A DNA stretch of 64,000 bases from the NCBI GenBank assembly GCA_013822265.1, contig PNKD01000007.1, positions 1 through 64,000 on the forward strand, read 5' to 3'. The notes under the pieces were generated by a model. It was not told where the DNA came from and searched no databases. It saw nothing but the letters and a program-made list of their open reading frames with translations. Each line of letters starts with the position of its first letter. Position 1 is the stretch's first letter. Source of the DNA: Leptothrix sp. (in: b-proteobacteria). GTDB lineage: Bacteria > Pseudomonadota > Gammaproteobacteria > Burkholderiales > Burkholderiaceae_C. Positions 7,585 through 64,000 of the stretch are shown piece by piece. The position numbers and the translations under genes are program-made.

Positions 7585-7908
7585 ATGAGGAAGTCCCCGA
7601 AGTTTTCCCCCGAGGTCCAGGAGCGCGCGGTGCGCATGGTCTTCGACGCCAAGGATCAGTACCCGTCGCAGTGGGCGGCGATCGAATCGATCGCCAGCAA
7701 GATCGGCTGCACGGGCGAGACGCTGCGCAAGTGGGTGCGCCAAGGCGAGCGCGACAGCGGCGTGCGGCCAGGCCCGACGACCACCGAGCAGCAGCGCATC
7801 AAGGATCTCGAGCGCGAAGTTCGCGAGCTGCGCAAGACCAACGAGATCCTGAAGTTGGCCAGCGCGTATTTCGCCCAGGCGGAGTTCGACCGCCAGCTCA
7901 AGAAGTGA
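7585..7908 (+). CDS. IS3-family transposase OrfA
   Basis: A 107-residue DNA-binding subunit. It opens with the helix-turn-helix typical of IS3 OrfA ([14 protein letters not shown], then [14 protein letters not shown]) and ends in a leucine-zipper-like coiled coil ([20 protein letters not shown]) followed by [12 protein letters not shown], the segment that joins OrfB. It ends at TGA 7906-7908. OrfB is in the -1 frame, so a fused OrfAB could be made by -1 frameshifting in the AAGAAG run just before the stop. Confidence 0.95.
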
Positions 7909-29438: not shown

Positions 29439-29514
29439 GGAAGGACCCGATGCACAAGCGCACCCGGCCGCTTCCCCGCAGCCCGGCGCAAACAGGAGCG
29501 CCACTTGCGCGGCG

Positions 29515-29705
29515 CACCACCTCGTTGGCCGGTATCCGGGCTGGCGGAGACGACCCGTGTGTCCTTCCCAGGAAGCCAGGCTTCCCAGTGGATTCGACAC
29601 GAGCGGGGGATCAGTCAGATCCCCGTCCGCTTACCGTTGCGGGGGCAGCTCAGGTTGGGGCTTTGGCCGAAGCGACGTCGGCCCTTCCTGATTCCCGTTG
29701 AACTG
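29515..29705 (-). promoter_or_regulatory. Cobalamin riboswitch (adenosylcobalamin aptamer)
   Basis: Read on the minus strand. The 5' part begins ACGGGAATC near 29699; the conserved core G-C-T-G-C-C-C-C-C-G-C-A-A-C-G-G-T-A-A-G lies at about 29630-29650, a C-A-C-T-G-G element follows near 29590, and the B12 box AGCCCGGATACCGGCC is at 29527-29542. All canonical parts are in order. It lies ~75 bp before the btuB ATG, so it would shut off btuB and the downstream cob/btu genes when cobalamin is plentiful. No T-run terminator is visible, so control of translation initiation is more likely. Confidence 0.93.
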
Positions 29706-29982
29706 CGGCTGCACGAATGCAGCCACGAGCACCAACGGGCAGATCATAGCCTGCTGGGGAGGTGCGCTCGTCACGCCTGCAACGGAGGCCGTGACCGCCG
29801 CTTCACGAAAGTACAGCTCAGTTTTTGTGCGGTGGACTGTTGTGGGCCGGCCATCGGCGCAAGCGGTGAGTTGCCTGCAGGCGGCGCGGCGCGTCGATCT
29901 TGGCGCGGTAGCGAGGACTGCGCCGGCCGGCGAGTTTCATCGCAACGACACATCCCTGTCACGTAGCCTGCCGAGACTCTGC

Positions 29983-50243: not shown

Positions 50244-51295
50244 CCTGGTTAGGCAGCAATCTCAGCAGCCCGTATGACGCGCTCTGGACAGGGTTTGCAG
50301 CGAACGACAGCGATGGCCAAGCGACGCAACATGGCTCCCAGGTGGAACCGCCGGTTGAATCGATACTGGAACTTGGCGAGGTAGCGGTGACCGTACTTGC
50401 TGAAGTTGAAGGCCTTGTAGGCGCCCCGCAGCGCCGTCTTCAGATTGCCCAGGATCGTGTTGACGGCCTTGAACTTGGGATGCTTGGCCGCAGCAGCACC
50501 GCCGCCGGTGACGTTGCGATCGTGGACGCCAGCGTCGGCGGCCATCGCGGTGAAGCACGGCAGCCCGTCAGAGACCAGCGTCAGCGGCCGCACCAGCGAG
50601 CGGGCTGCAAACTCAGTCATCGACGCGTTGGTGAACGGCCGCAAGGCCAGGCAGACGCGCACCGCTTGGCCATCCTCGGTCGTCTGCACCGCAGCCACGA
50701 ACGGCACCTTGTTCTCCGAGCCCCGGCCCGGCTTGCCGCCGACACGCTCGCCACCAAGGTAGGAGTCGTCGATCTCCACGCGCCCGCTGAGCTGGCGGAA
50801 CTCCTCGCACAGCCGCATCGTCTCCAGCAGCTTGTGCTTGACGAGCCACGCGCTGCGGTAGCTCACGCCCAGGTCGCGCATGAGTTCCAGCGCAGAGACG
50901 TTCGTCTTGGCCTTGGTCAGCAGGTGCATGGCCAGGAACCAGGTCTTCAGCGTCAGCTTGGAGCTGGCGAAGATGGTGCCGGCGATCAGGCTGCACTGGT
51001 ACTGGCAGGCCGCGCACTGCAGGTACAGCAAGGCGCCGCGGCGAAACTCTGTGCGCTTGCCCGCACCGCAGCGCGGGCAGCTAAAGCCTTGTGGCCAGCG
51101 CCAAGCCCTGACAGCCTCCTCGCATTGCTCTTCCGTTCCGTACCGCCGCTCGAACTCCGCCATCGACAGGCCTGGCTGGAACTGGACTCGGTTCATCGAC
51201 ATGGTGCGCCCCTGAGGTGGAGCGACCATCTTCTCTGGCCGGTGGCTCAAAGGATGAGCTACTCCAGCCTATGCTGAGGTTTGTGACGAATCAGG
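50244..51295 (-). mobile_element. IS1595-family insertion sequence with 8-bp target duplication
   Basis: A 1052-bp element flanked by TGCATTTA at 50236-50243 and 51296-51303. Its ends read inward CCTGGTTAGGCAG and CCTGATTCGTCAC, imperfect inverted repeats. It carries one transposase on the minus strand whose stop codon lies 5 bp from the left end. It landed between the epimerase gene and the LysR fragment and separates them from their shared promoter region. Confidence 0.88.
50249..51202 (-). CDS. IS1595-family transposase
   Basis: A 317-residue transposase. N-terminal zinc ribbon (C-P-R-C-G ... C-A-A-C), then the DDE_Tnp_IS1595 domain with V-E-I-D-D-S-Y-L-G-G (first Asp), L-V-S-D-G-L (second Asp) and N-T-I-L-G-N-L-K-T-A-L-R-G-A-Y-K (third region). 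M-S-M-N-R start at 51202; upstream Met at 51250 is possible but would fall outside the family's usual start. It appears intact. Confidence 0.93.
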   Translation of the reverse strand: MSMNRVQFQPGLSMAEFERRYGTEEQCEEAVRAWRWPQGFSCPRCGAGKRTEFRRGALLYLQCAACQYQCSLIAGTIFASSKLTLKTWFLAMHLLTKAKTNVSALELMRDLGVSYRSAWLVKHKLLETMRLCEEFRQLSGRVEIDDSYLGGERVGGKPGRGSENKVPFVAAVQTTEDGQAVRVCLALRPFTNASMTEFAARSLVRPLTLVSDGLPCFTAMAADAGVHDRNVTGGGAAAAKHPKFKAVNTILGNLKTALRGAYKAFNFSKYGHRYLAKFQYRFNRRFHLGAMLRRLAIAVVRCKPCPERVIRAAEIAA

Positions 51296-51306: not shown

Positions 51307-51645
51307 ATGGCAATGGGCATCGGCTGGGAGTTCTACCGTACCTTTCTGGCCGTGTTGACCGAAGGCTCTCTCTCCGGTGCGGCACGCTCCCTCGGCATCA
51401 CGCAACCGACGGTAGGTCGTCACATTTCCGCACTGGAGGCGTCGTTCGACCAGGCGCTGTTCACCCGCTCACAGACCGGCTTGTTGCCAACCGAGGCGGC
51501 GCAGGCGCTGCGCGGCCATGCCGAGGCCATGCGGAGCACTGCGGCAGCGTTGGAGCGCATGGCCACTGGCCAAGGGCACCTCGTGAGCGCGCCGCCGCGG
51601 CCTCGGGGGGTTGATGGGGCGCGATGCCGTTGGATCATGGATTGA
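51307..51645 (+). pseudogene. LysR-family regulator, truncated after the HTH domain
   Basis: The frame holds a normal LysR N-terminus (F-Y-R-T-F-L-A-V-L-T-E-G-S-L-S-G-A-A-R-S-L-G-I-T-Q-P-T-V), then the linker helix to about residue 95. After G-Q-G-H the sequence turns into unrelated low-complexity residues and stops at 112, so the ~200-residue ligand domain is gone. The break near 51590 is the border between the cargo segment and the integrative-element module that follows. A start at 51313 is also possible. Confidence 0.85.
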
Positions 51646-51677
51646 CGAAATTCCCGTCATCCATGAGGCACCACGCC

Positions 51678-52967
51678 ATGACGCATCCGATCATCAACAT
51701 CAACGGCGGCCACGCAGTACCACCCACCGTGCTAGGCCAAGGGCCTGCGCGCATTCCCACTGGCGGCAAGATTCGCGCGGGCATCAAGGTGCTCACCAAC
51801 AAGGCGGCCGACCAACCCAAGGCCAGAATGCTGTACGAGAAGGGCGTCGCCGCTGGCCAGTCTTTCGACCAGATCGAGCGTGCGATCACCGAAGCGCTGC
51901 CGCAGCTCAGGACACCGCTCGTCCCACGCAACGTGGCTTGGTTCACCGCTCGCGGGCAGGACTTCCCTAACCCGGAGATCGCCCAGCAGATCCTCGACGC
52001 CTATGCGGAAGACCGCGGCGAAGGCTCGCGCCTTTACCGCTTTCCGGTGGTGTTTCCATCCGATCATTGGCAGACCGTGATGCCGCACGAACTTGCGGCA
52101 TGGGGAGCGCATGAGAAGCGGTTCTGGTCCGAATACAGCTCCGACGGTCGGGTGCGGCACTGCATGACGCACGCGCCCGTGCCGCTGGACAACACGGGCC
52201 GGCGCACGATCCGCATCTTCGGTGGGCGCAAGACCATGGCCCGCGAAGCGGGCGGCGGCCTGTGCGACCCGGAGAACTGTCTTGAGTATCAGCAGCGCCA
52301 GTGCAACCTGAGCGGACGCTTTTTATTCTTCATTCCTGGCATCCGTTCGATCAGCGCCTTCGAGCTGCACACCAACAGCTTCTACGCGATGAACGCGGCA
52401 ATCCAGAAATTCAAGACCGTCGGGTTCCTGCGTGGCGGGCGCATCTCGGGCTTCCTGGATCGACAGCGCACGACCTTCTTCCTGACCAAGAGGCTGATGG
52501 AGGTAGCGCACATCGACGAGTCCGGCAAGGCCGTGCGCTTGCCGCAATGGATCATCGAACTCGAAGCGCCGGTGGACGTGACGGCGTTGCTGCGCGAACG
52601 GGAAGACGATGACTCGGCCATCGTGCAGGCGCAACTGGCGACACAGGTGCTTGAAGGCGACGTGCCGGCGCCTGCCCATCCTGCGATTCAAGTCGCGCCT
52701 GTGAGCGAGGGCGCTGATGCCACGTCGGCAGTGCGCGAAGGGGCTCCTTCGCTGGAGCGCCTGTTGGCCCAGGCACAGGCCCGCGGCATTGACCCGACTC
52801 GATTCGAGGCCTACGCCGACCGGCGTTGGGGCAGCGGCTGGAGGCTCAACCCGCACGGCCGCCGCCGGGCCTGGGACGAATTGGTGGACCGCTACCGCAA
52901 CGACCCGCAGGGCTACCGCGACAAGATCGACAGCGAACTGGCGCACTCCGAAGGGAGCGGCTCATGA
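51678..52967 (+). CDS. ICE protein, recombination-directionality-factor-like
   Basis: A 429-residue protein common on integrative elements, often labelled hydrolase or metal-binding protein or recombination directionality factor. Features: N-G-G-H-A-V-P-P-T-V-L-G-Q-G-P near residue 8, a Cys-rich stretch C-D-P-E-N-C ... Y-Q-Q-R-Q-C-N, and F-I-P-G-I-R-S-I-S-A-F-E-L-H-T-N-S-F. It would control excision if the assignment holds; I infer it from general resemblance. Just upstream (51637-51664) is a hairpin with ~10-bp arms. Overlaps the next gene by ATGA. Confidence 0.55.
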   Translation: MTHPIININGGHAVPPTVLGQGPARIPTGGKIRAGIKVLTNKAADQPKARMLYEKGVAAGQSFDQIERAITEALPQLRTPLVPRNVAWFTARGQDFPNPEIAQQILDAYAEDRGEGSRLYRFPVVFPSDHWQTVMPHELAAWGAHEKRFWSEYSSDGRVRHCMTHAPVPLDNTGRRTIRIFGGRKTMAREAGGGLCDPENCLEYQQRQCNLSGRFLFFIPGIRSISAFELHTNSFYAMNAAIQKFKTVGFLRGGRISGFLDRQRTTFFLTKRLMEVAHIDESGKAVRLPQWIIELEAPVDVTALLREREDDDSAIVQAQLATQVLEGDVPAPAHPAIQVAPVSEGADATSAVREGAPSLERLLAQAQARGIDPTRFEAYADRRWGSGWRLNPHGRRRAWDELVDRYRNDPQGYRDKIDSELAHSEGSGS

Positions 52968-54265
52968 TCCGCATCGCGCACTTCTCGGACCTTCACTACG
53001 GGCACAAGACCCTGGCCGAAGCGGACCGTTGCTTCGGGGCAGCCATCGACCAGGCCATCGAGGCCGGAGTTCAGGCCGCTGTGCTCTCCGGCGACGCCAC
53101 CGACCACGCGCTGGAACTGCACGCGCCTGCAGCACTGCGCCTCATCGAACAAGTCAAACGGCTGGCCGAGTACTGCCCTGTGCTGATGTTGCAGGGTACG
53201 TTTTCGCACGAGCCGCCCGGTGCCCTGTCGGCATTTCGGCTACTGGGGGCACGGCACCCGATCCACGTGGCTGACCGGATCGAGCAGGTGGTGTTGTCGC
53301 AGCAGGGGCAATGGCTGCCGTCGGATGCCTGGCGGTTCGACAAGTTGTCGGAGGCAGCGCTGGCGTTGTTCACCTGCGTGCCCACCGTGAACAAAGCGGT
53401 GGTTGCAGCGACCGTTGGCGCCACCCATGCGGCCACGTCGGTGGCTGCGCACATGGCCGCGCTGCTGGCGGGCTTCGCACCCATCCATCGCGAAGCCCGC
53501 ACGCGGGGCGTGCCGACCGTCGGTGTCTCGCATGGCACGGTCTTCGGCTGTATCAGCGAGCATGATGTGCCGATGGCCGGCTTCGATCACGAGTTCACGA
53601 CCGGCGCGTTGTTTGCCGCCGAAGCGCGGGCCTTCATGCTGGGGCACATCCACAAGCACCAGGCCTGGACACTAGAGGATGGTGAGGGAGTGCAGTGCGT
53701 CGCCTATGCGGGCTCGATCGGGCGCTTCCACCATGGCGAGCAGGGCGACAAGGGATTCCTTGTCTGGGACGTTGGCGCCGACATGGCGAGCCTTCAATTG
53801 CACACGACCCCCGCGCGCAGGACGATGGATATCGTGTTCGAGGGCCGTCCCGACTTGGCGGCGCTGAAAGATGTGATTGCACAGCAGTCGCTGGCCGGCA
53901 CGAATGTCCGGGTGCGCTGGACCGTCGCCGAAGAGGACAAGCAAGCCGTCGACCGCGCGGCGATCCTGGCTCTATTGGGCGAGGCAGCCGAAGTCATGCT
54001 GGAGGGGCGCATCGTGCCGGTGGTGCGAGCGCGGGCGGCGGGAATTTCGCAGCTGACTAGCTTGGTCGACAAGGTGCGGGTATGGGCGCAGACCACGGAG
54101 TGCAGCCTAGAACCCTTGCTTGGCTGCCTGGATCGCTTGATAAGCGCGTCGCCCGAGGAAGTTGCCGAGGCGATTCTTCAAGACTCGAACGCCAGCTCAG
54201 CCCTTGTCTGCGAACCCGATCCCGACGAGCGCGACGCGGCGCTGCCGGCACACGCACGCGCTTGA
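52964..54265 (+). CDS. SbcD-like metallophosphoesterase
   Basis: A 433-residue nuclease subunit of the calcineurin-like family: H-F-S-D-L-H-Y-G-H at residue ~5, S-G-D-A-T-D-H near 46, and G-H-I-H-K-H near 228. The usual G-N-H-D/E block is replaced by G-T-F-S-H-E. C-terminal ~110 residues form a helical cap. Directly followed by an SbcC-like ATPase, so it is likely the nuclease of an SbcCD/Mre11-Rad50-type complex on the mobile element. Start coupled to the previous stop by ATGA. Confidence 0.82.
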   Translation: MIRIAHFSDLHYGHKTLAEADRCFGAAIDQAIEAGVQAAVLSGDATDHALELHAPAALRLIEQVKRLAEYCPVLMLQGTFSHEPPGALSAFRLLGARHPIHVADRIEQVVLSQQGQWLPSDAWRFDKLSEAALALFTCVPTVNKAVVAATVGATHAATSVAAHMAALLAGFAPIHREARTRGVPTVGVSHGTVFGCISEHDVPMAGFDHEFTTGALFAAEARAFMLGHIHKHQAWTLEDGEGVQCVAYAGSIGRFHHGEQGDKGFLVWDVGADMASLQLHTTPARRTMDIVFEGRPDLAALKDVIAQQSLAGTNVRVRWTVAEEDKQAVDRAAILALLGEAAEVMLEGRIVPVVRARAAGISQLTSLVDKVRVWAQTTECSLEPLLGCLDRLISASPEEVAEAILQDSNASSALVCEPDPDERDAALPAHARA

Positions 54266-54317
54266 CGCGGCGGTGACCCGTGAGAGCCTGGATGGACAGC
54301 ATCTCCGGCCAAACACC

Positions 54318-56816
54318 ATGCAACCTCTATCACTGACACTCAAAGGTTTCCGCGGCATCCGCGACGGCCTGGGCCTCGACGAAATCACGCTCGACCTCGA
54401 ACGCCTGGTCGACGGTGCACAGCTTGTCGCCGTTGCCGGCAGCAACGGACGTGGCAAGACGACCATCATGGATTCGTTGCAGCCCTTCGCGACCCTCCCC
54501 AGCAGGGCTGCGGCGGCCGGAACCGGCGGCTTCTCGTTCTACGACCACGTCTACTTGCCGGAGAGCGTGAAGGATCTGACCTGGGCTCACGAGGGGCGCA
54601 GCTACCGGTCACAGCTGGTGATCCGGCTCAACGGCCGGCGTCGCACCGAGGCCTATCTGCATGTGCTGGACGACAACGGTGCCTGGTCACCAGTGCAGCT
54701 TGATGATGGGACCGTCTCGGATGGCAAGGTGGAGAGCTACACCCGCTGCATCGAGAACATCTGTGGCAGTGCAGATACTTTCTTCACTTCGGTGTTCTCC
54801 GCGCAGGGTAAGCGCCAGTTGAGCACCTACCGCAATGCCGAGATCAAGACTCTGCTTGCCGACCTGCTCGGGCAAGAGGAGATTCGCGCACTCGGCCAGA
54901 AAGCCGCCGAAACTGCGCGGCTGCTCAAGGCCGCCCTGACGACGATCCGCCAGGAACAGGCCGGGTTGGACGACGAGGCGCAACGCCTGGCAGGCGAGCG
55001 GCGGCTGCTCGAGGGTGCTCTGACCAAGCTCACCACGGCCCAGGATGCCAAGCAAGCGGCGCAGACCGCGCTGGACGTGGCTCAGGTTCGGCAGGTCCGA
55101 TTGGCCGCTGAGCGCGACCAGTCGCGAGGCGTGGAAGCTCGGCGCGCTCAACTGGCGGTCGAACGCAGGGCCGCGGAGGAGGCCGACGCGCAAGCCACTC
55201 GTGCGCTCCGGGCCCAGGACCAGGCGGAGCACCAGCGGCTCGAACGGCTCGATCAGCGCGTGAGCAGCCGGCTCCAAAGCGAGCGCAGCCGGCGCCAAGC
55301 CTTGCTGCAGGCGCGGCAGCGCTGCCGCACGACGCTCGCCGAAGTCGTGGCGGTTGAGCGTGCGGTGCGACGACTGCCGTTGGTGCAGCGCCTGCTGGGG
55401 TTCCGGGTCGAACTCATGCGCGCGGGGCGTGAACGGGTCCAGGCGCTGACGCAGTGCCAGGGGATGGAACGCCTGGCCGAACAGAAGGTCGCGGGCATCG
55501 AGCGTGATGCGGGCAGGGTGGTGCTGCGGGCCAAGGAACTGGCCCGTCGCTTCGGATTGACGGCGGAGGTCCCCTGCGCCGGCACGGACCTTCAGGGCCA
55601 GTGCAAGCTGCTGGGGGATGCGCTCGAGGCGCGGGCTCTGGTTCCCAGTGCGGCTGCCCAGATCGCGCAGTTGGCGCGCGACAAGGCGAAGGCTCAGCGC
55701 GAATTGCGGGCCGCGTGCTGCCGGCGCGAAGCCCTGGCGGCCGCGCCGCAGGACCTTGCTTGGGCCGAGCATTGCGAAAACCGCGTCCGGGAGCGGGTGA
55801 GTCGCCTGAGCGGGCTGGCGGCCAAGGCACCCGCATGCGCGCAAGCCCGTGCCGCGCTAGGCAGCGTTGAGCAGGAACTGGCCGCAATGGGACCGGACGT
55901 GGCAGGCCACCGGGACGAGACTGACGAAGAGCGAACCGAACGCGCGCAGATTGCCGCGTCGAGGGAGGCCGTCGCGGAGCAACTGGCCCGGCGAGCCGAC
56001 CAGACTCGCGCGACGAGGCAGCGCCTGGACGAAGCCGTGGCCGCACTGCCGGCACGCTACGACGAGGCCCCGCTGACCGCCGCCACTGCGGCGCTGAGCA
56101 GAGCTCGGGACGCTCTGGCAGCGGCGGAACAAGCGCTGTTGGTGGCGGTGCGGAACTCGCAGGCCTTCGACGACAACACGAGGCGGCAAGGGGCGCTGGG
56201 CGTGCGTATCCGGCAAGTGGTGGCACGGCGAGGCCGCGTCGAGATCGAACTGGGCAACTGGAATCTGTTCGCGCGCTGCCTGAGCAACGACGGTCTGATC
56301 GCGCTGGCGATCGACGACGCTGGTCCCGCCCTGTCAGGGTTGGCCAACGACCTTCTGCTGGCCTGCCATGGATCGCGTTTCACGGTGTCGATCCACACCC
56401 TGTTGGAAACCGGCAAAGGTGAGCAGAAGGAGGGCTTCGACATCGTCGTGCACGACGGCGAAACGGGCGACAGCAAGAGTGTCGGATTGATGAGCGGCGG
56501 CGAGCGGGTGGCGATCAACGAGGCCCTTGTTCGAGCCGTAGCGCTGTACCTCGCGCAGCACACCGGCCGGCGCTACACGACGCTGTTTTCTGATGAGATC
56601 GACGGCGCGCTGGACCCGGATCGCAAGCGGCTGTTCATGGCGATGAAACGCGAAGTGCTGCGCCTGGGCGGGTACGAGCGCGAGTTCTTCATCTCGCAGA
56701 CACCGGAGCTGAAGGCGATGGCCGATGTGGTGATCGACCTGGATGCGATAGCGCACGATGCTTGCCAAACGTCGGCAGGGGCCGAGCGGGCTCCGCTGCA
56801 GCCCGCGCTGAGATAA
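54318..56816 (+). CDS. SbcC/Rad50-like SMC-type ATPase
   Basis: An 832-residue ATPase. Walker A G-S-N-G-R-G-K-T-T at residues 41-49, long coiled-coil segments (~190-620) interrupted near residue 425 by C-A-G-T-D-L-Q-G-Q-C, where a hook might lie although the C-x2-C hook itself is absent, and the C-terminal signature L-M-S-G-G-E-R-V-A-I-N-E with Walker B L-F-S-D-E-I-D-G-A-L-D. It would act with the SbcD-like protein on DNA ends or secondary structures. ATG 54318 lies 52 bp after the previous stop. Confidence 0.85.
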   Translation: MQPLSLTLKGFRGIRDGLGLDEITLDLERLVDGAQLVAVAGSNGRGKTTIMDSLQPFATLPSRAAAAGTGGFSFYDHVYLPESVKDLTWAHEGRSYRSQLVIRLNGRRRTEAYLHVLDDNGAWSPVQLDDGTVSDGKVESYTRCIENICGSADTFFTSVFSAQGKRQLSTYRNAEIKTLLADLLGQEEIRALGQKAAETARLLKAALTTIRQEQAGLDDEAQRLAGERRLLEGALTKLTTAQDAKQAAQTALDVAQVRQVRLAAERDQSRGVEARRAQLAVERRAAEEADAQATRALRAQDQAEHQRLERLDQRVSSRLQSERSRRQALLQARQRCRTTLAEVVAVERAVRRLPLVQRLLGFRVELMRAGRERVQALTQCQGMERLAEQKVAGIERDAGRVVLRAKELARRFGLTAEVPCAGTDLQGQCKLLGDALEARALVPSAAAQIAQLARDKAKAQRELRAACCRREALAAAPQDLAWAEHCENRVRERVSRLSGLAAKAPACAQARAALGSVEQELAAMGPDVAGHRDETDEERTERAQIAASREAVAEQLARRADQTRATRQRLDEAVAALPARYDEAPLTAATAALSRARDALAAAEQALLVAVRNSQAFDDNTRRQGALGVRIRQVVARRGRVEIELGNWNLFARCLSNDGLIALAIDDAGPALSGLANDLLLACHGSRFTVSIHTLLETGKGEQKEGFDIVVHDGETGDSKSVGLMSGGERVAINEALVRAVALYLAQHTGRRYTTLFSDEIDGALDPDRKRLFMAMKREVLRLGGYEREFFISQTPELKAMADVVIDLDAIAHDACQTSAGAERAPLQPALR

Positions 56817-57356: not shown

Positions 57357-58014
57357 AGGCGAGGTACGCCGCCGCTTTACCGACGACCTCGAACCGCGCG
57401 ACGGTCTCCTCGCGCCGGCGAACCACCCAAGGGCGTTGATCGTCGCCGCTGGGGGCGATGGCCAGATCCACGACCCGATAGGCCGGATATCGATAGAGCA
57501 CCCGGCTGCTGCGCCAGTCGATGACACACAGCAGGCAAGCCGTCAGGATCGCTCCTCCGCCGTCCTCGCCTTCTTCGATCAGAAGCGGCACCCTGAGCGG
57601 GCCGCTCGAACGTCCGATCGTTCCGACGACGTCGTACTCGTCGAGCCACGACTCGCCGGCGGCCGTGTCGCCCAGCACGAGCCGTACCTTGTTGCCCTCA
57701 TTGCGACAACGCTCGAGTACACGTGCGGCCTCGGGCGCGGTCCCGGGATCGAAGTAGGTGTGCCGGCTGGCCGAGGACGAGCTCCAGGCTTGAATTGCGC
57801 GCATGTACTTGGTGTAGCCGGCGGGCTCCGCGTGGTCGGAGGCGGCGAAGGCCAGCTCAGGCCGGCGAAGCCTCTCGGCGATCTGGTTCGCATGGTCGCG
57901 CGCGTTGTCGAAGCCCAGGCAACTCACACCGCCATCGAAAGCGATGACGTAGAGGCGCTGGGCTCCGTTGACAGTCACCCGACTCGTCGGGCGATCTCCA
58001 AGGGAAGTGTTCAT
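57316..58014 (-). CDS. Hypothetical integrative-element protein
   Basis: A 232-residue protein without an identified domain. It has R-L-Y-V-I-A-F-D-G-G-V-S-C-L-G-F-D near residue 22 and K-Y-M-R-A-I-Q-A-W around 70; sequences of this kind occur on ICEs of Burkholderiales and Pseudomonas as far as I recall. Start at the ATG at 58014 preceded by GGAG; the hairpin at 58036-58066 is in its leader. Confidence 0.65.
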   Translation of the reverse strand: MNTSLGDRPTSRVTVNGAQRLYVIAFDGGVSCLGFDNARDHANQIAERLRRPELAFAASDHAEPAGYTKYMRAIQAWSSSSASRHTYFDPGTAPEAARVLERCRNEGNKVRLVLGDTAAGESWLDEYDVVGTIGRSSGPLRVPLLIEEGEDGGGAILTACLLCVIDWRSSRVLYRYPAYRVVDLAIAPSGDDQRPWVVRRREETVARFEVVGKAAAYLAFMRGLPVEPTIFR

Positions 58015-58035
58015 GAATCGAACTCCAAATGCGAA

Positions 58036-58066
58036 CAGGGCGTCGGCCTTTCGGCGCGACGCCCTG
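58036..58066 (-). promoter_or_regulatory. Strong hairpin in the leader of the 58014 gene
   Basis: A 31-nt structure with 10-bp perfect arms (CAGGGCGTCG and CGACGCCCTG) and a further inner GCC/GGC pairing around a 4-base loop. It lies 22 bp upstream of the ATG and does not include the ribosome site. It may end transcription from the upstream genes or protect the messenger; no T-run follows. Confidence 0.55.
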
Positions 58067-58130
58067 TGGGGTCTCGGTGCCACCGGCGAGGTGGCGATGG
58101 TTTCAGCGCAGGATGGCGGGGACCCGGCGG

Positions 58131-58439
58131 TCAGCCGTCATCACCGTCATCGTCATAGATGGCCAGGCCATCGACGACCGGTCCATCGGCGTCGAACTTG
58201 AGCCAGACGATGCCGGCCTTCGCGGCAGCCTCGAAGATCGCTGCCAGGTCGGCTTCGGCGGGCATCCTGTACGGCGGCGCACCGACGAACACTAGGCCGC
58301 CGTAGTCGCTGGGGTAGGCGTTGATCGACAGATCGTCGGCCGCGAGTTTGGCGCGGGTGGGCTGCGTCAAATGGGTGATCGACAGCGCAACCAGCGGCTC
58401 GGCCAGTTGCAGCAGGGTGGCCACGGTGGATTCATCCAA
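58131..58439 (-). CDS. DUF5983-like small protein, TTG start
   Basis: About 102 residues. A-L-S-I-T-H-L-T-Q-P-T and L-S-I-N-A-Y-P-S-D-Y-G-G-L-V-F-V-G, followed by G-I-V-W-L-K-F-D-A-D-G-P-V, resemble DUF5983 proteins of ICEs. The frame has no ATG at the right place. A TTG at 58439 lies six bases after AAGGAG, and is the probable start. The ATG four bases later is out of frame. Start overlaps the zinc-ribbon gene by eight bases. Confidence 0.55.
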   Translation of the reverse strand: MDESTVATLLQLAEPLVALSITHLTQPTRAKLAADDLSINAYPSDYGGLVFVGAPPYRMPAEADLAAIFEAAAKAGIVWLKFDADGPVVDGLAIYDDDGDDG

Positions 58440-58611
58440 GGCGGACTCCTTCTCGTTGGGGTGATGTTCTCGGTCCCGTCCGTGTGCGGGAGGGACGATT
58501 GAAGTCCATGCCGCAATCGCGGCAGCGGTACCAGCGCAGACGGCCCAGCGTGCCCAGCGGCACACCGTGGCCCGGGCAGATCGGGCAGCGCGGCGCGTTG
58601 CTCGTTGTCAT
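58432..58611 (-). CDS. Small zinc-ribbon protein
   Basis: A 59-residue protein with C-P-I-C-P-G-H-G and C-R-D-C-G, a zinc-ribbon layout of two C-x2-C knuckles. It is the first gene of a pair with the DUF5983-like gene. Its ATG abuts hairpin B of the leader (58612-58645), which contains the AAGGAG ribosome site. Confidence 0.7.
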   Translation of the reverse strand: MTTSNAPRCPICPGHGVPLGTLGRLRWYRCRDCGMDFNRPSRTRTGPRTSPQREGVRLG

Positions 58612-58666
58612 GGGGTTTCTCCTTCGTCGGTGGGAAGGGAACCCCAGGAACCCCTCGGGGCAGGGG
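58612..58666 (-). promoter_or_regulatory. Structured leader with buried ribosome site, copy 1 (zinc-ribbon gene)
   Basis: On the minus strand, hairpin A (58651-58666, C/G-run arms) is followed by hairpin B (58612-58645): outer arms GGGGTT and AACCCC, inner CCTTC/GAAGG holding the AAGGAG. The ATG at 58611 begins on the next base. Same architecture as copies at 59710, 61809 and 62545. Confidence 0.6.
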
Positions 58667-58808
58667 CCCCTTGGGGTTGAGATGAGCGGTGCGTCCGCCG
58701 CTCGCCTGTTGGCGTGAGTGCGCTGGCTGACATCGCCGCGAATGGACCGCTGCGCGCAGGGCAGGTGCGCGTCACATGAGGGCATGTGGAAGATCGTCCG
58801 TGGTGTGA

Positions 58809-58838
58809 TAGGCATCATATGCCGACCATGCCGGCATG
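58809..58838 (+). promoter_or_regulatory. Two adjacent inverted repeats over the XRE regulator start
   Basis: GGCATCATATGCC (58811-58823; 5-bp arms GGCAT/ATGCC with a 3-bp centre) lies just before the perfect 12-bp palindrome CATGCCGGCATG (58827-58838), which includes the ATG at 58836. Sharing of GGCAT/ATGCC arms suggests a repressor bound at two sites, most likely the XRE protein itself. Confidence 0.6.
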
Positions 58839-59081
58839 CCCATTTCCTCACCCCGGCACGCGAACGACCCGGTGCTTGTCGCACTGGGCGCTGCCATTCG
58901 GCGGTGCAGGCTGGCCAAGGGCGTCTCACAAGAAGAACTGGCGCATCGCAGCGTGATCGACCGCTCCTACATGAGCAGCATCGAGCGCGGCGGGCAGAAC
59001 CCGGGGATCGTGTCCATCGTTCGCATTGCGCGGGCGATGGACCTGACGATGACCGAGCTGATGGCCGAAGCCGAACTTTGA
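58836..59081 (+). CDS. XRE-family transcriptional regulator
   Basis: An 81-residue helix-turn-helix protein of the Cro/C1 class: R-R-C-R-L-A-K-G-V-S-Q-E-E-L-A-H-R-S, then D-R-S-Y-M-S-S-I-E-R-G-G-Q-N-P-G. One HTH with short flanks, no sensor domain. Palindromes over its start point to autorepression. It is the only regulator in this part of the element and may control its genes. Confidence 0.9.
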   Translation: MPISSPRHANDPVLVALGAAIRRCRLAKGVSQEELAHRSVIDRSYMSSIERGGQNPGIVSIVRIARAMDLTMTELMAEAEL

Positions 59082-59124
59082 GGCTCTGGATTCGGCACCT
59101 GCGTCGGTCCTGGCATGCATGGCG

Positions 59125-59709
59125 CTACACAAGGCCGCGTTCGGCGAGGCTGAGCACCTGATCGCCCGACACGATGAAGTGATCGATCAGGCGCACATCG
59201 ACGAGTGCCAAGGCGCTGCGCAGGGATTGCGTCAAGTGCTCGTCGGCGCGGCTGGGCTCCGGGCTGCCGCTGCTGGGGTGGTTGTGGGCAATGGCCACGG
59301 CGCTGCAATTGCGCGAAAGGGCGCCCTTGACCACTTCCCGCGGATACACCGAGGTCTGCGTCAGCGTGCCCCGGAAGAGCTGCTCGGCTTCGATCAATGC
59401 ATGGCCGGCGTTCAGGTAGAGCACGAGGAACACCTCGTACTCCAGGCCGGCGCAGTGCAGGCGCAGCCAGTCGCGCAGGGTCTGCGGCGAGTCCATGACC
59501 GGGCCGTGGCGCATCTGCGCTTGCAGGTCCCGCATCAGCAGCTCGCGCGCGGCGCTGAGCTTGCGTGTCAGCAAGGCATCGGGGGCCATCGCGTAGGCGC
59601 TGGTCGGCTCGCAATCGCCGACTCGAGGTGCGTCGGCCGAGTCCGGCCGCGAACTGTTCGCCAGCAACTCGGCGACCAGTTCGGCGCGGCTGAGGGTGGT
59701 GGGGGTCAA
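59125..59709 (-). CDS. radC: RadC-like JAB domain protein, TTG start
   Basis: A 194-residue protein. The C-terminal ~125 residues are the RadC MPN/JAB domain (E-Y-E-V-F-L-V-L-Y-L-N-A-G-H-A-L, then A-V-A-I-A-H-N-H-P-S-S-G-S-P-E-P-S-x-A-D with the H-x-H and Asp zinc ligands). It is a short version without the N-terminal helix-hairpin region of chromosomal RadC. The start is TTG 59709, because the frame has no ATG where translation must begin after AAGGAG. Its leader (59710-59766) is structured. ICE-borne RadC proteins have no proven role. Confidence 0.85.
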   Translation of the reverse strand: MTPTTLSRAELVAELLANSSRPDSADAPRVGDCEPTSAYAMAPDALLTRKLSAARELLMRDLQAQMRHGPVMDSPQTLRDWLRLHCAGLEYEVFLVLYLNAGHALIEAEQLFRGTLTQTSVYPREVVKGALSRNCSAVAIAHNHPSSGSPEPSRADEHLTQSLRSALALVDVRLIDHFIVSGDQVLSLAERGLV

Positions 59710-59766
59710 GGCGTTCTCCTTCAATGGAAAGCAGGAACGCCGCACCTGGTTGGGGACGATGTCCCC
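59710..59766 (-). promoter_or_regulatory. Structured leader with buried ribosome site, copy 2 (radC-like gene)
   Basis: Hairpin A is GGGGAC-atc-GTCCCC on the minus strand (59752-59766). Hairpin B (59710-59741) has outer arms GGCGTT and AACGCC and holds AAGGAG; its 3' arm ends exactly at the TTG at 59709. A short linker (AACCAGGTGC) separates them. This layout recalls the radC RNA motif reported upstream of ICE genes; I have not confirmed membership. Confidence 0.7.
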
Positions 59767-60117
59767 GCATGAGGTGGATGAGGCAGGTTACGACTGCGAC
59801 GCCGGCAAGCTGCCGGAGCGTTCACAACGAACGCGGTAAATGCCCGCGAAGTGTGAGCACAGGTAAGGGCGTCTGCAACACGGTTTGCCCCAATGCCATC
59901 GAAGACCGCCGACCGTTCAGGGCGATTGCGGGTGGCGACGGTGGGGCCGGCAGAGTCGCGCGGCGCGTGGATGTCGCTTCGAGGTCACGGCGAGGCGTCC
60001 GTGAACGGCGGTCTGTTGCCACGCTGTGAATGAAGTGCGACTGGAGTCACGCTGAAGAAGTTTTTGCGCCCTGCAGTCTGGACGAGCGCACAGGTCCTTG
60101 AAATCGAGCCAAGATGG
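59767..60117. other. Gene-free region between divergent radC-like and hypothetical genes
   Basis: About 350 bp separating the radC-like leader from the plus-strand gene at 60118. It presumably contains the promoters for both directions. A TTG at 60064 could extend the downstream gene but lacks a ribosome site. I see no repeats or transfer-origin signature. Confidence 0.4.
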
Positions 60118-60360
60118 ATGCAAGTCCGCTCCGAACACGCCTTCATGATCCGCCTCGGGCATCAGATTCGACTCACCCGCAGGGAGGTCGAACGCTTCAC
60201 CAAGATCACGGCCTTTGAGCCGGCGGGTGTCCGCACGCTCACTGACCTGGAGGCCTACATCGCGCGCTGCAAGTCCCACTACTGGGGCGCGTCGCGCGAG
60301 ACCCAGTTCCTGCACTGGCTGATCGACCGTGAAGCGGAGGCATGCCGCCGGGCGGCATGA
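60118..60360 (+). CDS. Hypothetical small protein, related to the one at 61921
   Basis: An 80-residue protein. R-L-T-R-R-E-V-E-R-F, then E-P-A-G-V-R-T-L-T-D-L-E-A-Y-I-A-R, aligns with R-F-T-P-Q-E-V-E-E-F ... E-G-A-R-T-P-D-D-V-E-Q-A-L-A of the protein at 61921. I recognise no named family; the shared part would form two helices. Start at the ATG at 60118, TTG 60064 possible. Confidence 0.55.
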   Translation: MQVRSEHAFMIRLGHQIRLTRREVERFTKITAFEPAGVRTLTDLEAYIARCKSHYWGASRETQFLHWLIDREAEACRRAA

Positions 60361-60445
60361 GGCTCGGCGTCGGTTCGGCGCCCCCGGTGGGTGGGCGCCG
60401 AACCGGCAGCGTTCTGGTCGCTGGTACGCAGTTGCCTGCTGCGGG

Positions 60446-61030
60446 TCACGCAGCTTCGAGCAGACGCTCGAAGAGATGCTCGATGCGCGAGGTGTCGCCA
60501 GCGCGCAGTGCGTTGCAGGCCTCGAGCACGACGGGTCCCGGCATGGGCGTGTCACCGTCATCGGTCTCGAGACGGGCAACGACCATGCCGCGTGGCGTCG
60601 CCACGGTCATCTCGCCCTGGTGCTTGATCCAACTGGCGGTGATCACGTAGTCGCCATCTCGCGTGAGCCGGTCGCGAACCAGTTGAACGCCAGCATCGAA
60701 AGTTTCCACCGTGACGACGTCGTCGAGGTCACCGTATTCGTGGGCGTAGAAGTAGGCACGGTAGGTCTTCGGCATCGGTGTCTCGAACAGCGTGAGGCTC
60801 AGCGTCGGCATCAGACAGTCCGGCATGCCGGAACCGTCGGCTGGCAACGCGGACTGCCCGCGCTCCAGGTGGTCCAGTTTGAGCAGCAGGGCATCGGCGT
60901 GGGCGCGTTCCTGCAGCACGAGCTGAGTGCGAAGGCCAAGGATCTCTTGCGTCATCAGTCGCAGTTCCTGGACGATGGCGCGTTCGGCGCGTGCCTCGAT
61001 GGTGCGCAGGGTATCGGCGGCAGTGGTCAT
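60446..61030 (-). CDS. Hypothetical protein with N-terminal coiled coil
   Basis: A 194-residue protein. Residues ~1-65 are charged and heptad-like (E-A-R-A-E-R-A-I-V-Q-E-L-R-L-M-T-Q-E-I), then a compact domain with T-Y-R-A-Y-F-Y-A-H-E-Y-G and D-Y-V-I-T-A-S-W-I-K-H. Acidic overall. ATG 61030 preceded by AAAAGGA. No family recognised; expected on integrative elements only from its neighbours. Confidence 0.6.
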   Translation of the reverse strand: MTTAADTLRTIEARAERAIVQELRLMTQEILGLRTQLVLQERAHADALLLKLDHLERGQSALPADGSGMPDCLMPTLSLTLFETPMPKTYRAYFYAHEYGDLDDVVTVETFDAGVQLVRDRLTRDGDYVITASWIKHQGEMTVATPRGMVVARLETDDGDTPMPGPVVLEACNALRAGDTSRIEHLFERLLEAA

Positions 61031-61277
61031 GGAAGGGTCCTTTTGCGAGGGATGCCGATCTGCATGAAGCAGGTCGACGGGAAGGGGGAGGTGTCCCGGG
61101 GTGCGGCCGCGGGCAGGCTTCAGAGGTGCCGTAGCACCTCGCAGCGAAGGAGATGAAAAAGGGGGGGTGCCGAACGCCACACACCACCGGGGCGGTGGGC
61201 GTGGGCGTTCAGCGATCAGGGCTGCGCGCGAGCGCTGCGCAGCCACGGACCGGGGCGTTGCCGCACCGGCGCTCAAG

Positions 61278-61808
61278 TCAGGCCGCCGAGCGGGAGGCCT
61301 TGGTTCTGGACGAGGCCGAGGCTGCAAGCTCGGCGCCGTTCGCGCCAATGGCGTCGGTTGTCGCCGTTGGCGAGGTCGCTGGTGGACCGAATGCCGAAGC
61401 CGCTTGCGCGAACTCGGGCTCTCGCGTCAGCTGGCGCACCTGGGGGACGGCCGGTTCCTTGACGGGTTCCGGCAGGCACTCGACGGCCAGGTTGCCGCCT
61501 TGGCGTCCGGCATGCCGAAGGGCTTGCACAGGACGCACGAACAGTCCGTGGCAGAGCCAGCGAACGAATTGGCCGATCCGCTTGTTGCGCGCCAGCCGGG
61601 CCTTGTGCAGGCGGAAGGATTCCTTGCAGCACAGGTACAGCGCCAGATGGGCACGCTTCATCTCGGGATCAGCGTCGAGCTGGGCCAGCACTTCCGTGGC
61701 GATGGCCAGGTCGTGGCCGACGCGCCGGTAGAAGGTGACCCAGGCACGCTCTTCCTCGGACGCGACGCAGGCGCGTTTGGTCCGGGGGGATGGTTTCTCA
61801 GGGGACAT
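61278..61808 (-). CDS. Hypothetical integrative-element protein
   Basis: A 176-residue protein. The first ~90 residues look folded (W-V-T-F-Y-R-R-V-G-H-D-L-A-I-A, H-L-A-L-Y-L-C-C-K-E-S-F-R-L-H-K); the rest is low-complexity and probably disordered. ATG at 61808 directly follows hairpin B of its leader. No family recognised. Confidence 0.6.
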   Translation of the reverse strand: MSPEKPSPRTKRACVASEEERAWVTFYRRVGHDLAIATEVLAQLDADPEMKRAHLALYLCCKESFRLHKARLARNKRIGQFVRWLCHGLFVRPVQALRHAGRQGGNLAVECLPEPVKEPAVPQVRQLTREPEFAQAASAFGPPATSPTATTDAIGANGAELAASASSRTKASRSAA

Positions 61809-61869
61809 GGTGTCGGCTCCGATGACAGAGGGGACACCCATCCCCAGTGGGGGAGACGGTGGACTCCCC
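61809..61869 (-). promoter_or_regulatory. Structured leader with buried ribosome site, copy 3
   Basis: Hairpin A (61850-61869) has arms GGGGAG and CTCCCC. Hairpin B (61809-61838) has outer arms GGTGTC and GACACC and inner CTCTG/CGGAG (one G-U), with GGAG in the 3' arm. Its 3' arm ends at the ATG at 61808. The linker GGGGATGGGTGTCCCC is shared with copy 4 apart from one base. Confidence 0.65.
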
Positions 61870-61920
61870 GAAGGTTGAATGAACGTGCGAGGCCGCTACG
61901 CTGACCACTCGCACACGAAT

Positions 61921-62205
61921 ATGAAACAGGCCCACACGATGCTTCGCGCAGGCAAGGCACTACGGTTCACGCCCCAGGAAGTCGAGGAGTTCCGATGGCT
62001 CGGTCTCGACATCGAGGGGGCGCGAACGCCGGACGACGTCGAACAAGCGCTGGCCGCATGGGCGCAGACGCTTGATCGTGAACGTCCGGCTCTGCTGGAG
62101 AAGATCGTCGCGGAGATGGCCCGAACGAAAGGCGTCAAGCTGCCCGCACGGCTGACCGTGGTGGACGATGCGTTTCCTTCGTCCGGTTCTCCTCGGCGAT
62201 CCTGA
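61921..62205 (+). CDS. Hypothetical small protein, related to the one at 60118
   Basis: A 94-residue protein with L-R-A-G-K-A-L-R-F-T-P-Q-E-V-E-E-F, then T-P-D-D-V-E-Q-A-L and R-P-A-L-L-E-K-I-V-A-E-M; helical. It shares a core with the product at 60118. The 3' 71 bp overlap the convergent gene at 62135-62365. Start at the ATG 61921; a Met further upstream (61879) is possible. Confidence 0.6.
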   Translation: MKQAHTMLRAGKALRFTPQEVEEFRWLGLDIEGARTPDDVEQALAAWAQTLDRERPALLEKIVAEMARTKGVKLPARLTVVDDAFPSSGSPRRS

Positions 62206-62365
62206 TCCAGCGGTCCGCGATCTGGTCCAGGTAGACCAGGTCGTCGGACTCGATCTCGCCCGACTGGCGCAGCCGGGCAATCACTTCCTTGACCATCAAC
62301 GGGTCATCCTTGGCGAGTTGAACCGCTAGGCTCGCAATGCGCGTGCGGTACAGGCTGGTCAGCAT
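62135..62365 (-). CDS. Hypothetical small helical protein
   Basis: A 76-residue protein: L-Y-R-T-R-I-A-S-L-A-V-Q-L, then V-K-E-V-I-A-R-L-R-Q-S-G-E-I, D-D-L-V-Y-L-D-Q-I-A-D-R-W. Mostly helical. Its ATG overlaps the upstream gene's stop by seven bases, indicating coupled translation from the leader at 62545. Confidence 0.55.
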   Translation of the reverse strand: MLTSLYRTRIASLAVQLAKDDPLMVKEVIARLRQSGEIESDDLVYLDQIADRWIRIAEENRTKETHRPPRSAVRAA

Positions 62366-62544
62366 GGGCCGACCTCCGCAGCGCAGGACTCTGCGCAACC
62401 ACACGCCTCTTGCGAGACGGGCGGCAACGGCTTCAACAGCACAGCTAATGGGCGCGACTGCACGACCAGGCGCCGGGCAAGCCCGGAACCGCCCAACAGC
62501 ACGCCGACGGCGCGCACTTCTCTTGTCGCAGGGACAGCGAACAT
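62359..62544 (-). CDS. Hypothetical small Cys-rich protein
   Basis: A 61-residue protein ending A-C-G-C-A-E-S-C-A-A-E-V-G-P-C; the four cysteines in the tail could bind metal. No family recognised. Its ATG directly follows a 13-bp hairpin that buries AAGGAG (62545-62575), which marks this as a real gene start. Confidence 0.5.
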   Translation of the reverse strand: MFAVPATREVRAVGVLLGGSGLARRLVVQSRPLAVLLKPLPPVSQEACGCAESCAAEVGPC

Positions 62545-62603
62545 GGTGTTCTCCTTCGCAAAGAAGGGGAACACCCATCCCCGGCAGGGAACTTGGGGTT
62601 CCC
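62545..62603 (-). promoter_or_regulatory. Structured leader with buried ribosome site, copy 4
   Basis: Hairpin A (62587-62603) has arms GGGAAC and GTTCCC. Hairpin B (62545-62575) has outer arms GGTGTT and AACACC continued by CCCCTTC/GAAGGAG around a TTTGC loop, a near-perfect 13-bp stem enclosing AAGGAG. The ATG at 62544 follows at once. It is the strongest of the four copies. Confidence 0.75.
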
Positions 62604-63114
62604 CGTTCGGGATGCTCCAACTGGCTGGCAGCGGAGCGGCTCGGTGACGGCCAGGGGCCGTCGGTTGCGGTCGAACCGAGGTTCAACCTCTACAAGGCAG
62701 GTGACGACTGCGACGCCAGCACGCTGGACTTCAGGAGGACCAGGCCCTCGGTGAAGGCTGAGCAGACACGATGTCCGCAGATAGCTCTTTAAGTCTGACA
62801 TCGGCCTTGATGCGCTTCAAGGCGATGCGGGGCGGCGGCATTCGATGCCACCCGAAACGATCGTGATTGACGAGGGGTTTTGGGTAGCGGTTTGCTTGGG
62901 CCCCGAGGCAGTCCACCTGGTCTGGCCGCGGCCCCAAGCCGCATTGGTTCAAGGACGCGCTGAACAGTGGCGCGAGCGAGGAGTCGTTGAGGGTCGCGGC
63001 GCGGGCTGGATGAGGCGGCGGCTGCGCTGACCGCGAGCGCTCGAGTGCCGATGGGGTCGTGTTGGCCGCAGTGGCATGCGGTCCCTTCAAATCTCGCGCT
63101 CGCCAAACAAAGAA
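62604..63114. other. Gene-poor region upstream of the 62.5-kb leader
   Basis: About 510 bp. A weak plus-strand frame at 62845-63030 (61 residues, M-P-P-E-T-I-V-I-D-E-G-F-W-V-A-V-C-L-G-P) has no ribosome site but its first half is protein-like; it may be a small gene (I give it ~0.3). Otherwise nothing is recognisable. The promoter of the 62.5-kb leader should lie in its left part. Confidence 0.35.
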
Positions 63115-63142
63115 ACCCCCACAGCCTTTCGGCCGTGGGGGT
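63115..63142 (-). terminator. Rho-independent terminator of the large element gene
   Basis: On the minus strand a hairpin with arms ACCCCCAC and GTGGGGGT plus inner GGCC/GGCT-type pairing is followed by TTTCTTTGTTT. It lies 9 bp after the stop codon of the gene that ends at 63151, so transcription of that gene should end here. Confidence 0.85.
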
Positions 63143-63150
63143 GAAGTAGT

Positions 63151-64000
63151 TCAAGCCGCCTGTCGCGCCTCTTCGGCGTCGACCTTCCCACTGCCCGCTT
63201 CGTCCTTGTCCAGGTCGAGTTGCTTGAGCAATGCTCGCTGTCTGACGAGAAGGTCGGTGAGTCGCCCTTCGTGCTCGAAAGTCCGGGCCAGTTCCAGCTG
63301 GATGTCTTCCAGCCGCTTGCGGCGGGTCTCCAACTGCGCCTGAGCATCGGCATGCAGTTGGCCCACCGAGCCCAGCGCCGCCAGCACCGCTGCGACCAGC
63401 GCCGGTCCCGTTTGGTAGGGCTCCGCGTTGTACAGACAGTGCCCGGCCAAATACAGACTGGGCGTCTCTTCGCCGCGTGAGGCGAAGATGCCCAGGTCGA
63501 AGCCACCGAAGCGGCCGACGATCCTTTCGATCATCCGGCTGCCCGTGCGCACCTCTTCCTTGGCGGTCTTCACCAGTCCGCGCAGCGCATCGCCGGCGGC
63601 GTCCGGGCCAACGATCTTGCGCCCGGCCAACTCCATGGCCATGCCCTGCATGGTCTGCGGTTCGATCCGCACCATGTCCTGGGCGTACAGCCCGATCTTC
63701 TTCTCCAGCGCCTCGATCATCATCGGCAGCCGGCCCACCTCGCTCTCGTTGGCATAGCGCTGGTTGCGCCACACCGAGAACAGCGTCGAGAGCTTGGCCA
63801 CCTCCGCGTCCACGCCGGCTTTTTCGATCACGAGCGGATTGCCCGAGGCCAGGGCCTTCACCTCGGCATACGACAGCGCGGCCAATTCGACGTCTTCCAG
63901 CGACCGCAGCCCTTTGTCGCCACTCATCACCTGGGCGATGAAGCGTGCCTTGGTCTCCAGCGTCTGCCAGCTATAGCTGTCGAAACTCCCTTCCGTGACG
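63151..64000 (-). CDS. C-terminus of a large helicase/DNA-methylase-type element protein (5' end outside window)
   Basis: The frame is open to the right edge; ~283 residues are visible. G-S-F-D-S-Y-S-W-Q-T-L-E-T-K-A-R-F-I-A-Q and S-Y-A-E-V-K-A-L-A-S-G-N-P are typical of the C-terminal end of the very large helicase-methylase proteins (DarB-like, SNF2/DEAD type) of phages and ICEs. The last ~90 residues are coiled coil (L-E-T-R-R-K-R-L-E-D-I-Q-L-E-L). The catalytic domains are not in view. A terminator follows its stop. Confidence 0.65.
   Translation of the reverse strand, partial: VTEGSFDSYSWQTLETKARFIAQVMSGDKGLRSLEDVELAALSYAEVKALASGNPLVIEKAGVDAEVAKLSTLFSVWRNQRYANESEVGRLPMMIEALEKKIGLYAQDMVRIEPQTMQGMAMELAGRKIVGPDAAGDALRGLVKTAKEEVRTGSRMIERIVGRFGGFDLGIFASRGEETPSLYLAGHCLYNAEPYQTGPALVAAVLAALGSVGQLHADAQAQLETRRKRLEDIQLELARTFEHEGRLTDLLVRQRALLKQLDLDKDEAGSGKVDAEEARQAA

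Follow-up and report, generated by a model that had tools for sequence, protein, structure and literature searches.

Paired-hairpin leaders of conjugative-element genes in Leptothrix sp. and other bacteria: a candidate two-state translation switch with a conserved competing helix

Introduction

Post-transcriptional control of the genes of integrative and conjugative elements (ICEs) and plasmids is, to our knowledge, little known. The closest described system is the radC RNA motif, which occurs in the 5′ untranslated region of radC and other DNA-related genes, and for which we know of no assigned function. The four leaders analysed here also precede radC and neighbouring genes of a mobile element; they lie in a stretch of 64,000 nt from Leptothrix sp. 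(GenBank assembly GCA_013822265.1, contig PNKD01000007.1, positions 1 to 64,000), hereafter the window. Comparing them with leaders from many other elements, we propose, with a probability of roughly 60% that rests on sequence comparison and fold prediction, that they constitute a cis-regulatory two-state translation switch, in which two neighbouring hairpins (A and B) would form the OFF state, and a competing helix between strands of both hairpins (a1:b1) the ON state.

In a 2010 report, the radC motif is listed as certainly RNA and probably cis-regulatory, in Proteobacteria (PMC2864571). Similarly to our leaders, the STAXI RNA (RF01728) is placed by the same source near antirestriction and DNA-handling genes, but its structure consists of repeated pseudoknots, whereas our leaders are start-codon hairpins.

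The four leaders of the window

An original prediction, made from the letters of the window, had claimed four structured leaders on the minus strand, and all four occur at the claimed positions, each abutting the start codon of an open reading frame (ORF). The outer arms of hairpin B are also exactly as claimed (GGTGTT/AACACC, GGTGTC/GACACC, GGCGTT/AACGCC and GGGGTT/AACCCC for leaders 1 to 4). Regarding the limits, the side of hairpin B stands, whereas on the side of hairpin A the leaders begin 7-12 nt further upstream than had been proposed (at 62614, 61876, 59777 and 58678). The observation holds, and it reaches further than first described. Each of them comprises, in this order, hairpin A (strands a0, a1, a2 and a3), whose outer stem is a0:a3 and whose inner one is a1:a2, and hairpin B (b1:b2), the Shine-Dalgarno sequence (SD, GGAG) being located within b2, the end of which meets the start codon. 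Their coordinates are as follows.

Leader 1, 62545-62614, minus strand: 5′ of a 61-aa ORF (62359-62544, ATG at 62544); a0 62609-62614; a1 with loop 62595-62605; a2 62585-62592; a3 62576-62582; b1 62563-62575; b2 with SD 62545-62557.
Leader 2, 61809-61876, minus strand: 5′ of a 176-aa ORF (61278-61808, ATG at 61808); a0 61872-61876; a1 with loop 61858-61869; a2 61850-61855; a3 61839-61845; b1 61826-61838; b2 with SD 61809-61821.
Leader 3, 59710-59777, minus strand: 5′ of radC (59125-59709, TTG at 59709); a0 59771-59777; a1 with loop 59758-59768; a2 59752-59757; a3 59743-59747; b1 59731-59741; b2 with SD 59710-59722.
Leader 4, 58612-58678, minus strand: 5′ of a 59-aa ORF (58432-58611, ATG at 58611), which is followed by a DUF5983 gene; a0 58671-58678; a1 with loop 58663-58672; a2 58656-58661; a3 58649-58655; b1 58634-58645; b2 with SD 58612-58625.

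The gene behind leader 3 encodes RadC (PF04002, E 1e-38), and the product of the 59-aa ORF behind leader 4 appears zinc-ribbon-like in our reading. Compared with their own shuffled sequences, leaders 1, 3 and 4 fold with z values of −4.2, −2.8 and −3.5, respectively.

A conserved helix that competes with both hairpins

Reading the leaders side by side, we noticed complementarity between b1, which is the SD-hiding strand, and the 5′ arm of hairpin A (a1) with its loop (for example, over 14 pairs in locus L076 and 11 pairs in locus L073). This a1:b1 helix, which is absent from the original prediction, is the main mechanistic clue. Because it has two registers, we compared the duplex formed by each leader's own strands with those obtained after permuting the A regions among leaders.

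In set 1 (51 leaders labelled as 18 elements, mostly belonging to the training sets of the search models described below, with b1 set by hand in ten), the own a1:b1 duplex averaged −16.0 kcal/mol, as compared to −13.1 kcal/mol after permutation (z −8.4, 0/1000) or −14.4 kcal/mol when the permutation was restricted to leaders of the same element (z −5.0, 0/1000). The positive controls b1:b2 and a1:a2 gave z values of −11.9 and −10.5, and the negative controls a1:b2 and flank:b1 gave +0.9 and +1.7; a third one, a2:b1, gave −1.8 (40/1000), and +0.5 within elements. Set 2 comprised 30 leaders taken later, outside the training sets of the models, of which 27 were parsed and three were not; five misparsed leaders were retained, and removing them changed nothing of note. 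Here the own a1:b1 duplex averaged −15.7 kcal/mol versus −9.7 kcal/mol (z −12.1, and −4.7 within elements; 0/1000), with controls of −10.9 for b1:b2, −0.1 for a1:b2 and −1.3 for a2:b1. A third set (16 leaders parsed of 17) gave z −6.1 for a1:b1 (0/2000) and +1.3 for the control A:b2. With a single leader taken per element, over 28 labelled elements, the mean z for a1:b1 was −8.9 (0/40000).

The a1:b1 runs of 78 leaders contain 566 Watson-Crick pairs, 23 G-U, 3 A-C and 22 others. As G-U and A-C were scored alike, the excess of the former indicates RNA of the coding strand. This count bears on another explanation, namely that the structure is a single-stranded DNA signal acting on the transferred DNA strand. 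Such signals have a precedent in the single-stranded DNA promoters of the F plasmid, and the genes behind the leaders fall into the DNA-handling and antirestriction categories. However, since hairpin B includes the SD and runs up to the start codon, it must be transcribed with the gene, and the 23 to 3 ratio of G-U over A-C also argues for RNA; we regard the DNA explanation as highly improbable. For STAXI, a single-stranded DNA idea was likewise raised before RNA was favoured (PMC2864571).

Predicted occupancy of the two folds

In the complete leader, b1 is predicted to be paired with b2 (median 0.80 in the 51 leaders and 0.78 in the 27), its pairing with A being close to 0.01. When the last 13 nt are absent, b1:A rises to a median of 0.71 (above 0.5 in 36/51) and 0.88 (23/27), and blocking b2 as if it were occupied has a similar outcome (35/51 and 23/27). 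Without b2, the mean occupancy of b1:A is 0.63 (51 leaders) and 0.73 (27 leaders) with the own A region versus 0.46 and 0.37 with swapped ones, and the own value exceeds the foreign mean in 62/78 leaders. In growing chains, computed as equilibrium folds and not as kinetics, b1 of leader 1 remains with A until 27 nt past its first base and is with b2 by 31 nt, while b1 of leader 4 is still split at 33 nt.

Covariation of hairpins A and B

The original prediction had read compensatory changes from the four leaders, in a shared SD-hiding structure standing before unrelated genes. This is supported by the covariation found in 41 leaders (40 distinct; 863 cells), and the lack of covariation among homologous leaders that had been named as evidence to the contrary did not come about. 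When the A+B structure was compared with 500 shuffles by five measures, it was reached by 0, 1, 0, 0 and 0 of them. Standard pairs amount to 85.6% (77.4% in shuffles), cells changed on both sides to 73 (22.6 in shuffles), and the covariation score to 0.256 (0.124 in shuffles); 14 of the 22 pairs are changed on both sides, including 11 of the 12 pairs of hairpin B, and every measure drops once the partner is displaced by 1-3 columns. In hairpin B, G-U cells outnumber A-C cells (33 vs 14). As the alignment had been fitted to the structure, which favours it, the permutation tests of a1:b1 carry more weight than these counts.

RNAalifold run on the ortholog set A2 returned another fold, none of whose pairs is changed on both sides; this fold was set aside because the A2 sequences are alike and their alignment mixes loops.

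The orthologs of leader 2 were gathered in a 17-sequence alignment. Some of them carry, by eye, a further hairpin-like stretch upstream (GTGCGAG..CTCGCAC). Also by eye, a3 (GGGGA) in many leaders of the 176-aa gene could pair with codons 1-3 (ATGTCCC), which would lengthen hairpin B across the start codon (leader 2, window 61809-61920).

A proposed two-state switch

From the occurrence of the SD inside a conserved helix (hairpin B) and of a conserved competing helix that would free it (a1:b1), the sequences indicate that two mutually exclusive folds are conserved, one of which hides the SD. By sequence and fold prediction, b1 can pair either with b2, thereby hiding the SD in hairpin B, or with a1, which mimics b2, and a1 in turn can pair either with a2, in hairpin A, or with b1. 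In the complete leader, A+B is the predicted resting fold, which we propose to be OFF, and b1 is predicted to be paired with A in most leaders as long as b2 is unmade or occupied. In the loop of A (CACC, AUC and variants), b1 may find the toehold for displacing a2, and the SD of the nascent transcript would consequently be open for a short time. An occupied SD would let b1 shift to a1 and remain there; a 30S subunit, a protein of the element or an upstream module such as the radC RNA could hold the leader open by favouring a1:b1, and A+B would shut the leader when such a factor is lacking. In this way, one mechanism could jointly set the translation of many single genes (radC, ArdC-type antirestriction, RecT, DNA methylases, STY4534/DUF3577, DUF3150 and DUF3560).

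Several points weigh against this proposal. First, about a tenth of the foreign A regions fit a given b1 equally well (median 0.105), the own A region is among the best 5% in just 33 of the 78 leaders, and in 16 of them the own occupancy fails to exceed the foreign mean. Second, a1:b1 amounts to about 1% (median) in the complete leader, so that a trigger is needed, and none was found. Third, the leaders share kinship, hence the permutations are not independent events; the element labels are ours, and they may wrongly separate contigs C7, C70 and C125, which come from one genome; the hand-set b1 limits concern ten of the 51 leaders of set 1. Fourth, hairpin A shows fewer G-U than A-C cells (16 vs 29), perhaps owing to misalignment, and leader 2, taken alone, barely outfolds its shuffles (z −1.4). 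Fifth, a2:b2 is weakly own-specific in set 1 (z −3.3, 1/1000), though not in set 2.

The set 1 value would fit a static damper, in which A and B are only stable hairpins that lower translation and a1:b1 is a relic of an ancient event that duplicated a single hairpin; such a duplication would also yield the observed resemblances of a1 to b2 and of a2 to b1. Remnants should erode, however, and the own-specificity of a1:b1 roughly equals that of the hairpins themselves, both in far-diverged elements and within elements, whereas a2:b2 shows nothing in set 2 (z +0.5). We consider a static damper unlikely, and retain the two-state switch as the preferred reading.

Leaders in other conjugative elements

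Two covariance models were built, R1 from 12 leaders and R2 from 41. R1 also gives scores of 16-25 bits on the strand antisense to strong leaders; such matches were excluded from the R2 alignment by a threshold, which also dropped weaker true leaders. In the window, the R2 matches at E<=0.5 are the four leaders only: leaders 1, 2 and 3, which belong to its training set, score 73.8, 47.9 and 52.6 bits, and leader 4 (58612-58677), which does not, still reaches 29.3 bits (E 0.002).

Searching other elements with a new model built from the leaders, as the original prediction had suggested, recovered the class in other conjugative elements. In the same genome, contig C70 carries a second gene set with leaders before a 61-aa-type gene, a 176-aa-type gene and radC. 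In 19 further loci from public genomes, chosen as encoding a relative of the 176-aa protein, R1 (E<=1) found sense-strand leaders ahead of the 61-aa-type gene (all 19 loci), the 176-aa-type gene (18, the exception being L023) and radC (16), the identities of the 61-aa-type and radC genes being checked by translation; in L006, a leader precedes a 194-aa ORF devoid of the RadC motif string, and a counterpart of leader 4 was found in L005 only. In genome samples, where the filters lose weak matches, R1 (E<=0.01) matched 7 of 369 genomes of the class, and R2 (E<=0.01) matched 18 of these 369 and 7 of 398 genomes of the phylum, our genome being included in each count. The 17 loci inspected from the 18/369 class scan are all two-hairpin leaders with an ORF starting −1 to +4 nt from the leader end; hairpin B was parsed by script in 16 of them, and L086 repeats a leader already used. 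No R2 match at E<=0.5 occurs in L044 (Thauera), L045 and L047 (both Klebsiella), and a single exact pattern scanned in viral_contigs gave 0 matches, which says little.

We also ran R2 on annotated stretches absent from the training, namely those of pKLC102, ICEHin1056 and Stutzerimonas, Duffyella and Burkholderia glumae plasmids. It gave 18 matches at E<=1, each on the plus strand of its locus, and none of them in the B. glumae stretch (L070). Sixteen of the 18 end 1-5 nt before an annotated plus-strand coding sequence (CDS) start, while about 0.6% of random positions end 0-12 nt before an annotated start; of the other two, one ends 8 nt inside a CDS start and one at no annotated start. The starts behind these leaders include those of STY4534-family, DUF3560, zincin metallopeptidase, DEAD/DEAH helicase and cytosine methyltransferase genes. 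Among 20 further proteins encoded downstream of leaders elsewhere, Pfam recognised RadC (2), ArdC N-terminal (2), and RecT, C5 DNA methylase, DUF3150, DUF3560, DUF4942, DUF6927 and an Eco57I-type methylase (1 each), and 9 of the 20 had no Pfam family. Together, these sequence matches indicate that the leaders are a widespread class in conjugative elements.

The multiplicity of leaders is worth considering on its own. The first 7.4 kb of L048 contain nine R2 matches (E<=0.011), much alike in sequence, ahead of successive and different ORFs. Such numbers per element would suit an element-encoded RNA-binding protein with both hairpins as its target, which would repress or activate all the leaders jointly, the pairing serving only as a scaffold. 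This explanation, partly compatible with the switch, is a credible one to which we nevertheless give less than even odds: the arm sequences vary among leaders of one element while the pairing stays (L050, L051), and we know of no protein candidate, no search for one having been made.

Another match in L048 (6353-6437) was set aside as it resembles terminator hairpins.

Relation to the radC RNA and other RNA families

The original prediction had also considered that the leaders might be members of the radC RNA family. They are not recognised as such: the Rfam model RF01754 matches no window leader, either at its gathering score (40 bits) or at E<=10 over 58000-63200, whereas it finds its positive controls at 92.8-138.4 bits in another genome and 81.8-110.8 bits in pKLC102 and the Stutzerimonas plasmid. 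At the gathering score, RF01754 is likewise absent from 9 + 8 other loci and ICEHin1056, all of which bear leaders. The genomic context is the one described for radC RNAs, since our leaders precede radC, ArdC, RecT and methylase genes; the radC RNA also precedes like genes on mobile elements, on the same strand (radC at L040; STY4534/DUF3577-type genes at L041, L066 and L068), and, where encountered, it usually lies directly upstream of our leader. The two differ in that the radC RNA, a 149-nt model, ends 8-29 nt before the leader, which also occurs without it.

Of the 11 distinct radC RNAs encountered, nine have an R2 match 8-29 nt downstream. All three radC RNAs of pKLC102 (L066) do so, with gaps of 10, 29 and 8 nt, as do two of the three in the Stutzerimonas plasmid (L068; gaps of 8 and 8 nt) and those of L040, L041, L042 and L058 (merely 15.3 bits in L058). 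The third radC RNA of L068 is followed, by eye, by two hairpins with a weak 13.8-bit match, and in L043 the radC match extends, in our reading, into hairpin A. The leader thus seems to be a module in its own right, located downstream, which the radC RNA can precede.

Two of the four window leaders are preceded by copies of a 32-nt direct repeat, D1.

Copy 1, 59781-59812, minus strand: upstream of leader 3 (radC), sharing 91% identity with copy 2.
Copy 2, 62695-62726, minus strand: upstream of leader 1.

By eye, its core (GGCGTCGCAGTCG..ACCTGCC) can be made out in 14 of the 15 aligned upstream regions of radC and in 6 of the 15 of the 61-aa gene, and the repeat is perhaps another upstream module in the role of the radC RNA. 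Both this repeat and the nine radC RNA-leader pairs would fit an arrangement, partly compatible with the switch, in which an upstream RNA module senses a ligand and sets the leader as its expression platform. Yet the window, the 9 + 8 loci and ICEHin1056 bear leaders without a radC RNA at the gathering score, the leader of L042 has neither GGAG nor a start codon directly behind it, and no ligand is known. We hold this arrangement to be somewhat unlikely, the radC RNA being a candidate aptamer only, found upstream in some elements.

Scans with Rfam 15 (gathering scores and E-values) returned no curated family covering the leaders. The ftsZ-DE match over leader 4 is at chance level (21.5 bits, 72.2 required, E 0.85), and the PhotoRC-I match in L038 (19.6 bits, 45 required) overlaps an R1 match itself taken for a terminator. 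The window contains no STAXI RNA at the gathering score; in L056, a STAXI RNA (940-1094, 90.6 bits) lies upstream of R2 matches at 1141 and 1501.

Surroundings in the window

The region 51624-56813 (plus strand), which adjoins the leader cluster, contains a recombination-directionality-factor-like gene (PF18897, E 7e-28) and the gene of an ATPase whose SMC/AAA_23 matches are weak and fall short of the curated cut-offs, with a neighbour that we read as SbcD-like. An IS1595-family transposase (50252-51250, minus strand) adjoins the element genes. An ALIL pseudoknot (7863-7979, plus strand, 116.7 bits) and a cobalamin riboswitch (29510-29751, minus strand, 72 bits) are ordinary.

Comparison with known systems

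The leaders offer a testable RNA mechanism that the genes for antirestriction, RecT, RadC and methylases would share across many elements. They also provide a covariance model for detecting additional members and, possibly, the output module of the radC RNA motif. More tentatively, and with appreciably less confidence than in the switch itself, we suggest that they represent an undescribed, widespread three-strand exchanger, open in its nascent form and shut in its finished one, which would be a common output module joinable to differing upstream sensors, the radC RNA being one of them. Antirestriction and DNA-processing genes would then be translated only on a fresh or signal-held transcript, for instance just after entry into a new cell.

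In a survey of one open-access library, no description was recognised as this leader. Similarly to translational riboswitch platforms and Erm-type attenuators, it has an anti-SD strand with two rival partners, the SD being hidden or free, but the alternative partner here comes from a neighbouring hairpin, of which it forms the 5′ arm and loop; neither an aptamer nor a leader peptide was identified in the leaders, no systematic search for conserved short ORFs having been made. As in the metastable SD-sequestering hairpins of a type I toxin mRNA, co-transcriptional folds would decide the time at which the SD opens; in that case, the transient fold of the toxin mRNA hides the SD (PMC6733600), whereas in our leaders the transient fold is predicted to open it and the final one to hide it. 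SD-sequestering switches are thus already known, and what is new, as far as we can tell, is a three-strand exchange with a neighbouring hairpin that is repeated over many genes of one element.

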